Of a stretch of DNA of 64,000 nt, positions 38,154 through 40,913 are shown piece by piece. The notes under the pieces are model-generated. The model made no database searches. It was not told the origin of the DNA and saw nothing but the letters and a program-made list of their open reading frames with translations. The DNA is taken from positions 1 through 64,000 of the forward strand of contig CABYLY010000001.1 in the NCBI GenBank assembly GCA_902519945.1, given 5' to 3'. This DNA comes from an uncultured Pelagibacteraceae bacterium. GTDB taxonomy: Bacteria; Pseudomonadota; Alphaproteobacteria; Pelagibacterales; Pelagibacteraceae. A program made the translations under genes and the position numbers. Each line of letters starts with the position of its first letter. Positions within the stretch are counted from its first letter, which is position 1.

Positions 38154-38957
38154 ATGAGAATATTATTTTTAGGAGATGTAGTTGGAAATTCAGGATGTTC
38201 AAAGATTACTAATAATCTATTGAGTCAAATAAAACTTAATAAAATTGATTTTGTAATTGTGAACGCAGAAAATTCAGACCAAAGTGGAGTTGGTTTAACA
38301 AAGGACATTTGTCAGGATTTTTTTAATTGTGGTGTAAATGTAATTACAACTGGTAATCATGTTTGGGATCAAAAAGATATAATGAATTTTATTGATAAAG
38401 AGAAAAGATTACTACGTCCAAAGAATCTATTTGAACCAGCACCAGGAAATGGTTTTGAAATATATACAACTTCGAAAAATTTTAAAATTGGTGTTCTTAA
38501 TTTAATGGGAAATGTATTTATGAAAAAATGCGATGATGTATTTCAAACTGCAAAAAAGTTTTTAAACAACTATAAGCTTAAGGAAGATTATGATTTTTTA
38601 GTAGTTGATTTTCATGGAGAAATTACAAGTGAGAAAAATGCTATTGGACATTATTTTGATGGAAAAGCAACACTTGTAATTGGAACACATACACATATTC
38701 CAACTAATGATGCTAGAATTTTAATAAACGGCACAGCTTATCAAACAGATGCAGGAATGTGTGGTGATTACAACTCTGTAATTGGAATGAACAAAGATAA
38801 TTCAATAAATAGATTCATGAAAGAAGACTCTATTAAACATTTTCCAGCAAAAGGTGAGGCTACTTTAAGTGGTGTGATAGTAGATTGTAATATAGAAACT
38901 GGACTCGCAAATAATATTCAAAGCTATATTTTTGGCGGTCACCTGGAAAAAAAATAG
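38154..38957 (+). CDS. ymdB: YmdB-like metallophosphoesterase (TIGR00282)
   Basis: A 267-aa protein. ILFLGDVVGNSG, VNAENSD, TTGNHVWDQ, DFHGEITSEK and GTHTHIPTND give the metal ligands of the YmdB family. Bacillus YmdB hydrolyses cyclic nucleotides (2',3'-cAMP and others); the role in this group is unknown. It starts right after the fau stop and ends 7 nt before yebC. Confidence 0.9.
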   Translation: MRILFLGDVVGNSGCSKITNNLLSQIKLNKIDFVIVNAENSDQSGVGLTKDICQDFFNCGVNVITTGNHVWDQKDIMNFIDKEKRLLRPKNLFEPAPGNGFEIYTTSKNFKIGVLNLMGNVFMKKCDDVFQTAKKFLNNYKLKEDYDFLVVDFHGEITSEKNAIGHYFDGKATLVIGTHTHIPTNDARILINGTAYQTDAGMCGDYNSVIGMNKDNSINRFMKEDSIKHFPAKGEATLSGVIVDCNIETGLANNIQSYIFGGHLEKK

Positions 38958-38964
38958 TTGGTTT

Positions 38965-39687
38965 ATGGCAGGACATTCCCATTGGGCAGGTATTAAACAT
39001 AAAAAAGGTAAAGCAGATAAGCAGAGATCGAAAATTTTCTCTAAATTATCTAAAGAAATAACTGTAGCAGCAAAGCTAGGTGACAAAGACCCTTCAATAA
39101 ACCCAAGATTAAGATCTGCAATTCAAGCTGCTAGATCTGCTAACATGCCCAAAGATAATATTGAAAGAGCTATCAATAAATCTAATGTAATCAATGAGGT
39201 AAATTTTGAGAGTCTTAGGTATGAGGGATTTGGCCCTGAAAAAGTAGCGGTTATTGTTGAAGCATTGACAGACAACAAAAACCGTACGGCTGCGAAAATA
39301 AGGACTATTTTTCAAAAAGCAGGGGGAAGTCTTGGAACTCTAGGTTCTGCCTCTCATAATTTTAATCAATTAGGAATAATTAAGATTGATAAAAATGAGG
39401 TTACAGATGAACAAATTTTTGAGCTTGCAATTGATGCTGGTGCTGATGAATGTCAATCAAATGAAGATTATCATGAGATACACTGTTCTATAAACGAAAT
39501 TTATAATGTAAAAAAGGAGCTTGAGAAAAAAATTAAAAACTTCATATCAACAGAGATAGAGTGGGTTCCGTTGAATAGAGTTATTGTGCCTAAAAACAAA
39601 ACTGATGATTTGATTAATTTTTTTGAAACACTGGAGGAAGATGATGATGTTCAAAATGTTTACTCAAATTTAGAATTTGCTAAATAA
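38965..39687 (+). CDS. yebC: YebC/PmpR family regulatory protein
   Basis: A 240-aa protein beginning MAGHSHWAGIKHKKGKAD, the exact family N-terminus, so I place the start at 38965 rather than an upstream in-frame ATG at 38932 that lies inside ymdB. The family binds DNA or ribosomes; recent work on homologues points to relief of proline-dependent stalling, similar to EF-P. In Alphaproteobacteria it precedes ruvC, and a RuvC-like gene follows here 3 nt later. Confidence 0.93.
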   Translation: MAGHSHWAGIKHKKGKADKQRSKIFSKLSKEITVAAKLGDKDPSINPRLRSAIQAARSANMPKDNIERAINKSNVINEVNFESLRYEGFGPEKVAVIVEALTDNKNRTAAKIRTIFQKAGGSLGTLGSASHNFNQLGIIKIDKNEVTDEQIFELAIDAGADECQSNEDYHEIHCSINEIYNVKKELEKKIKNFISTEIEWVPLNRVIVPKNKTDDLINFFETLEEDDDVQNVYSNLEFAK

Positions 39688-39690
39688 ATT

Positions 39691-40185
39691 ATGCTTATAA
39701 TAGGAATAGACCCTGGTATATCTGGTTCAATATGTTTTTTCGAAGATGGTAAAATTCTTGATGTTATAGAAATGCCGACAATGAACGAGGGGAAAAAAAA
39801 TAAAAGGCAAGTTAATGGAGCACAGATCTATAACGAAATAACTTATAGAATTAATAAATTGCAAAAACAAGATGTTAGGGTTGTGGTTGAACAAGTATCA
39901 GCTATGCCTGGCCAGGGTGTTACTAGTATGTTTAATTTTGGCCAGTCATTTGGAATAATAAAAGGGATCTGTTCAGCTATGCAATTACCTTTATATTTTG
40001 TTAGGCCTACGAAATGGAAAAAATATTTTAATCTTATTAAATCCGAAAAGGATGCAAGTAGAACAAGAGCGATAGAAATTTTTCCTTATTTTTCATCACA
40101 ATTATCAAAAAAAAAAGACTCTAATAAAGCAGACGCCATATTAATTGCTAGTTTTTATCACGAAACTTATAAAAAAGAGTATTAA
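39691..40185 (+). CDS. Phage-type RuvC-like Holliday junction nuclease
   Basis: A 164-aa RNase H-fold protein. GIDPGISGSI carries the first catalytic Asp, VVVEQVSAM the Glu, and DSNKADAILIA near residues 143-153 the last Asp residues. The QVSAMPGQGVTSMFNFGQSFG and VRPTKWKKYF stretches resemble RuvC-like resolvases from phages more than chromosomal RuvC. It sits in the place of ruvC after yebC, but ruvA, ruvB and ybgC are missing before tolQ. It probably cleaves branched DNA; whether it works with RuvAB is unknown. Confidence 0.78.
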   Translation: MLIIGIDPGISGSICFFEDGKILDVIEMPTMNEGKKNKRQVNGAQIYNEITYRINKLQKQDVRVVVEQVSAMPGQGVTSMFNFGQSFGIIKGICSAMQLPLYFVRPTKWKKYFNLIKSEKDASRTRAIEIFPYFSSQLSKKKDSNKADAILIASFYHETYKKEY

Positions 40186-40238
40186 TCAAGAGATTTTCAA
40201 AGACAAAATCATGACACAATTAAGTGTGAGAAGTTCCT

Positions 40239-40913
40239 ATGGAAGCTGATATTTCGACTCAAGCTGTTGGTCTTGCATCAAGTGCTGACTTTTCATTAAT
40301 GAATTTATTTTTACGGGCAGATATAATAGTTAAATCGGTAATCATAATACTGATTGCATGTTCAATTTACTCTTGGGCAGTAATAATTGATAAATTTAGA
40401 TTATTTAAAAAAATAAATCAATCAACTGAGGAATTTGAAACAAAATTTTGGAATTCAAAATCTGCTGAAACTTTTTATAATAATCTTCCATCAAATACAG
40501 AGGATCCAATGGCATTGGTTTTTAAAGAAGCAATGCAAAGTTTATTAAAAAAAAGATCAAGAACAGATATTAATAGTAGAATGACGACGATGTTAGAGAC
40601 AGGAATTGAAAAACAAATATCAAAAATTAGTAAGGGCTTTACTTTTCTAGCTACTGTTGGATCAACTGCTCCTTTTATAGGTTTATTTGGTACTGTTTGG
40701 GGTATTATGAACTCATTCCAATCAATTGCAATATCAAGAAACACTAGTTTAGCTATTGTTGCGCCTGGTATTGCTGAAGCTCTGTTTGCAACTGCTTTAG
40801 GGTTGTTGGCAGCCATTCCTGCTGTAATAGCTTATAATAAATTTAATAACGATACCATAAAATATACACAAAAGTTAGAGAATTTTTCTAAAAGATTTTT
40901 AACAATAATTTAA
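40239..40913 (+). CDS. tolQ: Tol-Pal system protein TolQ
   Basis: A 224-aa inner-membrane protein. SLMNLFLRADIIVKSVI marks the first helix; ATVGSTAPFIGLFGTVWGIM and IAEALFATALGLLAAIPAV are the conserved second and third helices. With TolR it forms the proton-driven motor that energises TolA. It is the first gene of tolQRAB-pal-cpoB. TolR starts 1 nt after its stop. Confidence 0.96.
   Translation: MEADISTQAVGLASSADFSLMNLFLRADIIVKSVIIILIACSIYSWAVIIDKFRLFKKINQSTEEFETKFWNSKSAETFYNNLPSNTEDPMALVFKEAMQSLLKKRSRTDINSRMTTMLETGIEKQISKISKGFTFLATVGSTAPFIGLFGTVWGIMNSFQSIAISRNTSLAIVAPGIAEALFATALGLLAAIPAVIAYNKFNNDTIKYTQKLENFSKRFLTII

Follow-up and report, generated by a model that had tools for sequence, protein, structure and literature searches.

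A phage-derived Holliday-junction resolvase has probably replaced ruvC-ruvA-ruvB in the ancestor of the Pelagibacteraceae

RuvABC is the three-protein machine that finishes DNA recombination, and the SAR11 bacteria are a very abundant, strongly recombining marine group. RuvC normally acts inside the RuvAB complex, and the loss of any part of the complex has an equal effect (PMC3864405). RuvAB together with a RuvC or RecU resolvase belong to the near-universal core of recombination genes and show little horizontal transfer (PMC1193525). It is known already that RuvC can be replaced by another resolvase, namely by RecU or, as a suppressor, by RusA. RecU is a non-homologous replacement of RuvC across a whole bacterial group, the Firmicutes and Mollicutes (PMC1193525), while RusA substitutes for RuvABC in E. 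coli provided that RecG is present (PMC5055574). An E. coli ruvABC deletion becomes UV resistant again when it is given the RuvC of phage bIL67 (PMC3864405), and prophage resolvases have been suggested as replacements of RuvC (PMC1193525). In plants, the Holliday-junction resolvase MOC1, which cuts in a sequence-selective manner (PMC7078210), is encoded by a nuclear gene and targeted to the plastid. A recent study of the SAR11 recombination gene set covers RecBCD, RecF and MutSL and not RuvABC; it published the absence of RecBCD and RecF, and ruv is unmentioned there (PMC12374537). A search of the openly readable literature found no report of a loss of RuvABC in SAR11.

The window, i.e. the whole stretch of 64,000 nucleotides of Pelagibacteraceae DNA that was analyzed, contains the site at which the ruv genes are expected. 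Alphaproteobacteria that keep the old state have the order yebC-ruvC-ruvA-ruvB-tolQ (L356) or yebC-ruvC-ruvA-ruvB-ybgC-tolQ (L358), in agreement with the order assumed in the preliminary description of this DNA. In the window the ruvC-ruvA-ruvB slot is filled by one open reading frame on the forward strand (39691-40185; ATG start, 164 aa), which is predicted to encode a phage-derived resolvase with a RuvC fold of the MOC1 type. Its start lies 3 bases behind the stop of yebC (38966-39687, forward strand; Pfam PF01709/PF20772 and synteny), the upstream marker of the slot; a gap of 53 bases separates its end from tolQ (40239-40913, forward strand; Pfam MotA_ExbB 3.4e-36 and synteny), the downstream boundary. 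Coordinates and synteny thus place the nuclease directly between yebC and tolQ, as had been described. The span first given for it, 39691-40238, includes the gene; the remainder, 40186-40238, is intergenic. Upstream of yebC lies a gene for a ymdB-type phosphodiesterase (38154-38957, forward strand; tblastn synteny), and the same search finds a ymdB-type gene as the upstream neighbour of yebC in most of the lineages in which the ruv genes have been swapped.

Sequence and predicted fold assign the 164-aa protein to the phage-type Holliday-junction resolvases, outside the RuvC family. It matches PHROG 1770, a family of phage Holliday-junction resolvases, with an E value of 2.4e-36 (residues 1-160 of 164 to profile positions 4-151 of 158). 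No Pfam family matched the protein above the cut-off, and PF02075 (RuvC) was found neither in the protein nor in the genome; the NCBI RuvC model NF000711 gave 17.8 bits against a cut-off of 163. A sequence search of the PDB returned the plant chloroplast MOC1 resolvases as the best solved relatives (E 7.5e-13). The AlphaFold2 model of the monomer (pLDDT 90.8, pTM 0.88) also has MOC1 as its top fold match (Foldseek 8.8e-14; Z 22.5, rmsd 1.9 over 159 residues), with RuvC second at a Z of about 17 (E. coli RuvC 1hjr, Z 17.1 over 149 residues). The model therefore has the RuvC/RNase-H fold, while the sequence stays below the cut-off of the RuvC family. The motifs cited earlier for a phage-like RuvC-fold nuclease, including VRPTKWKKYF, are present in the open reading frame, and the PHROG match, the fold and the grouping with phage resolvases (see below) all speak for that first assessment.

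At least 588 viral relatives were found; those from phages are 40-49% identical, and none of the 80 viral relatives that were kept has Tol, YebC or Ruv neighbours. The PHROG 1770 resolvases, such as the epsilon15 ORF and that of Planktothrix phage PaV-LD, have the signature PGQGV..F.FG in common with SAR11, but they sit in phage genomes, whereas in SAR11 the gene is fixed between yebC and tolQ as part of the housekeeping set. MOC1 (PDB 6kvo, 6jrf) shares the fold, three catalytic acids and the domain size, yet is only 23-29% identical to the bacterial protein, which is encoded on the chromosome. RuvC of E. coli and Deinococcus has in common with it the RNase-H fold, the role slot in the genome and the place after yebC; RuvC, however, works within RuvABC of the same genome, whereas for the SAR11 protein, which scores below the RuvC model cut-offs, no RuvA or RuvB-type partner was found. 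In two phages the PHROG 1770 gene is followed by a gene for an SNF2-type ATPase (Podoviridae ct8d5349, L146 1369-3277; Microcystis phage Mae-Yong1326-1, L147 1390-3378), a possible branch-migration partner of the phage resolvase.

Next to the site we examined the gene content of the order. PF02075 RuvC is present in 369 of 389 sampled Alphaproteobacteria, most small genomes included, and was found in none of 61 Pelagibacterales relatives, the source genome among them. RuvA_N likewise was found in 0 of these 61 and in 0 of 10 further complete Pelagibacteraceae. RuvB_N produced only weak matches, and no real RuvB was seen in the Pelagibacterales searched; in the complete chromosome G012 (1,343,202 bases, 5 kb masked) the matching frames turned out to be DnaX, ClpX, Lon, FtsH and a small AAA protein, and frames of the same lengths recur in other genomes. 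Searches of G012 with RuvA and RuvC of E. coli found nothing. Since the source assembly (1.01 Mb, 36 contigs) is 78% complete, these absences rest on the relatives, chiefly the complete ones: ruvA is missing from 11 complete genomes (G012, G061-G065, G066-G068, G070 and G162), and an assembly gap was rejected as the cause because the complete single-contig genomes G012 and G061-G065 are without ruvC. The earlier statement that ruvA and ruvB are gone from the site is therefore correct, and the profile searches detected neither gene elsewhere in the genome or in the complete relatives. For ybgC the same statement is valid for the site only; the gene was not lost from the genome but has moved, as relatives retain it. 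The deeper Pelagibacteraceae genera g5-g7 have the order yebC-NUC-ybgC-tolQ, where NUC is the nuclease gene; in genus g1, which holds the window, ybgC has moved out of the tol operon, and in G012 it lies away from that operon at G012:C1:482264-482656.

RecG, for which a search had been recommended, is present. It was full length, with wedge and helicase domains, in 25 of 25 genomes tested, including the source genome (G000:C5:39339-41195, L279); most SAR11 copies score just under the strict NCBI cut-off (e.g. 642 vs 659 bits). The scores of the wedge domain in SAR11 RecG are weak, and this domain may be diverged. Chromosome G012 also encodes RecA, RecR and YqgF, and a search of it for RecBCD and RadA gave no true homologue. 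YqgF/RuvX might be a second resolvase.

The alignment with MOC1 allows a prediction of the active site. In MOC1, mutation of D116, E175 or E258 abolishes cleavage (D116A is inactive), D253 is dispensable, and Asp183 in the base-recognition loop reads cytosine (PMC7078210). Three of the four catalytic acids of MOC1 (D116, D118, E175, E258) are matched in the SAR11 protein by D7, E67 and D148, which are all invariant in 27 genus members. The predicted catalytic Asp7 (codon 39709-39711, forward strand) aligns with MOC1 D116 and with RuvC Asp7 and is invariant in 50 sequences; the likewise predicted and invariant Glu67 (39889-39891, forward strand) aligns with E175. In the stretch from Asp143 to Asp148 (40117-40134, forward strand) the second residue aligns with catalytic E258 and the first with D253; Asp143 may be catalytic as well. 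The place of MOC1 Asp118 is taken by Gly9, as it is in RuvC. Alignment and conservation put loop A71-G84 (AMPGQGVTSMFNFG; 39901-39942, forward strand) in the place of the base-recognition loop of MOC1. Its segment AMPGQGV is near-invariant, phage relatives included, and the position of the cytosine-reading Asp183 of MOC1 is occupied by Gln75.

This difference at the base-recognition position and the fact that phage resolvases cut many branched DNAs (PMC3864405) would fit an enzyme with a changed main substrate, whose chief task would be the debranching of stalled forks or flaps and which would play only a minor role at Holliday junctions. We regard this as unlikely, although it is the best of the alternatives: the closest solved relative, MOC1, is selective for sequence at Holliday junctions (PMC7078210), and, with the whole of RuvABC lost, SAR11 genomes have no further resolvase that is proven to act on junctions.

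The slot between yebC and tolQ also has other occupants in the Alphaproteobacteria. In the sister family f2 (L239-L245) it holds a PD-(D/E)XK protein of ~125 aa (PDDEXK_15, weak Hjc, PHROG 244 with E 3e-21). Its sequence retrieved only designed helical proteins from the PDB, which we took as noise. The fold model of a viral relative had archaeal Hjc as its top match, which was weak (Foldseek E 0.04, Z 7.6), so the Hjc type is assigned on the basis of Pfam PDDEXK_15/Hjc and PHROG 244. Family f36 has a 168-aa PDDEXK_15/PHROG 244 protein in the slot, for which BLAST detects no similarity to its f2 counterpart. Families f23 and f108 have PHROG 2002 resolvases there (L263 1134-1478 and L266 2022-2312), which are 68% identical to each other. 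In family f55 a further PHROG 1770 protein lies between yebC and ybgC-tolQ in a single genome, G496; the other members of the family retain ruvCAB, and G280 has ruvC-ruvA-ruvB-ybgC at the slot. Neither RuvC nor RuvA was found in f2, f36, f23, f108 or G496, and the search for RecG was positive in every one of these swapped lineages. Wherever the slot of a lineage without RuvC and RuvA was readable across, a phage resolvase was there (6 of 6).

The best identity of the slot proteins to viral contigs is 49% for SAR11, 55% for f2, 63% for f36, 76% for f23/f108 and 46% for G496; the viral stretches that were fetched with these relatives contain no yebC, tol or ruv genes. The PHROG 2002 relatives of f23/f108, with up to 76% identity, lie on viral contigs, several of which are ~37 kb long; going by this similarity, f23/f108 is apparently the most recent capture. 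As a separate observation, two complete genomes of 1.5 Mb from family f80, genus g147 (G384 and G449; L268, L269), are without RuvC and RuvA and have no open reading frame of at least 95 aa behind yebC.

In the Pelagibacterales the resolvase was found in 164 of 198 genomes (drawn at at least 80% completeness, plus the source genome). It is present in all 11 complete single-contig Pelagibacteraceae and spans six genera of the family; the genomes without it are those of the sister family and assemblies that, where checked, also lack tolQ. In complete genome G012 no second copy of the slot-type resolvase families was found. All five nuclease-less Pelagibacteraceae genomes checked were without tolQ, which indicates that their locus fell in an assembly gap. 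Relatives of the resolvase occur in 11 of 389 genomes of the class and are scattered outside the Pelagibacteraceae. The order (ymdB-)yebC-NUC-tolQ-tolR is kept in the 27 genus neighbourhoods that were read (a few neighbouring genes were unread, partly because of contig ends), and YebC identity among the genus neighbours compared is 74-86%. The GC content of the gene, 0.307, is close to that of its neighbours (0.33 and 0.30); this composition has no foreign signal, recent foreign DNA was rejected on this ground, and the capture is therefore taken to be old.

The presence of YqgF in G012 could suggest that YqgF/RuvX, or RecG alone, resolves the junctions, and that the slot protein is a nuclease of a resident prophage or of a defence system and takes no part in recombination of the chromosome. 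We consider this very improbable. The gene is single copy in almost all genomes and stands in one operon in 27 of 27 neighbourhoods. No phage genes adjoin it in SAR11, a PADLOC search gave no match to a defence system, and the median dN/dS of 0.06 indicates strong purifying selection. Furthermore, YqgF coexists with RuvC or RecU in most bacteria (PMC1193525), and a phage resolvase occupies the slot in all six readable lineages without RuvC and RuvA.

Phylogenetic analysis confirmed the viral affinity of the protein. In the maximum-likelihood tree (INDEPENDENCE) the 14 SAR11 sequences form one clade (100/99), which is nested among phage (and MOC1) sequences (95/93). RuvC is far from SAR11, on a branch that is ~5 changes per column long (support 100/100). 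Descent in the chromosome from a highly divergent alphaproteobacterial RuvC that was freed from RuvAB, with no phage gene involved, is in spite of the RuvC fold (Z about 17), the place after yebC and the weak NF000711 match hardly credible, given this tree, the failure of Pfam RuvC to match, the distance from the 163-bit cut-off and the case of G496, which shows that a PHROG 1770 phage gene can land at the slot. The position in the slot is by itself no proof of descent, because in the sister family a PD-(D/E)XK nuclease that is unrelated to the SAR11 protein stands there. Neither of the two observations that the preliminary description had named as contrary to a replacement, ruvAB elsewhere and a grouping with chromosomal RuvC, was made; the absence of RuvABC, the slot position and the grouping with phages support the replacement that it had suggested.

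The same analysis bears on the number of captures. G496 falls in a separate viral clade (100/98), and its joining with SAR11 is rejected (AU p 3.4e-7; an earlier tree without the viral relatives of G496 gave 0.03). According to these sequences, G496 is an independent capture of a PHROG 1770 gene. With distinct families elsewhere, there are thus at least four captures (SAR11, f2, G496 and f23/f108); f36 is probably a fifth, and f23 and f108 may represent one or two. We think it likely that yebC-tolQ is a site of resolvase exchange in streamlined Alphaproteobacteria, with four to six swaps in place by at least three families (PHROG 1770, 244 and 2002), with RuvA lost, RecG kept, and recombination by RecG and a phage resolvase. 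In the tree, plant MOC1, on a very long branch, is joined with cyanophage-type resolvases (93/87; L140 PaV-LD, L102) close to the SAR11 clade, a hint from the sequences that the plastid resolvase may be of phage origin too.

Together, we conclude that a phage-captured Holliday-junction resolvase very probably replaced ruvC-ruvA-ruvB in an ancestor of the Pelagibacteraceae and acts without RuvAB. The ancestor would have captured the phage gene into the ruv slot between yebC and ybgC/tolQ; the motor may have been lost first, or the phage resolvase gained first. Because phage resolvases need no RuvAB, and in SAR11 RuvABC is gone and RecG is kept, we propose the following pathway. RecA would form the joint molecule, and RecG, the presumed partner, together with spontaneous migration would move the junction. 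The enzyme, putatively a homodimeric, metal-dependent protein of RNase-H fold, would bind the open junction as a dimer and nick two opposed strands by means of Asp7, Glu67 and Asp148, and probably also Asp143. The analysis shows the gene content and the position of the gene, its kinship to phage genes, the fold, the conservation, the purifying selection and the retention of RecG; beyond this, we infer that the 164-aa protein is the main cellular resolvase.

The fold of RusA differs from that of the SAR11 resolvase. Like the SAR11 enzyme, the RusA of E. coli, from a prophage-type gene, is a phage resolvase that is able to replace RuvABC with RecG; unlike it, RusA is not normally expressed in E. 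coli (PMC5055574) and is not known as the fixed and sole resolvase of any clade. RecU retains RuvAB as a partner and seldom adjoins the RuvAB genes, whereas in SAR11 RuvAB is lost and the replacement sits in the ruv locus. As judged from the open papers, the new elements are a phage resolvase that serves SAR11, which has lost RuvAB, as a fixed housekeeping enzyme, its membership in the MOC1 type, and repeated swaps at one locus by different families.

The swap trades three genes for one in streamlined genomes. If our interpretation is true, a whole abundant clade completes recombination by a phage enzyme and without a RuvAB motor. Swaps that recur at a single locus amount to a series of natural experiments on the need of a resolvase for its motor, and in family f55 the genomes G280, with ruvCAB, and G496, with the phage resolvase, form a before-and-after pair. 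The swaps also make it testable that phages supply housekeeping DNA-repair genes to shrinking genomes.
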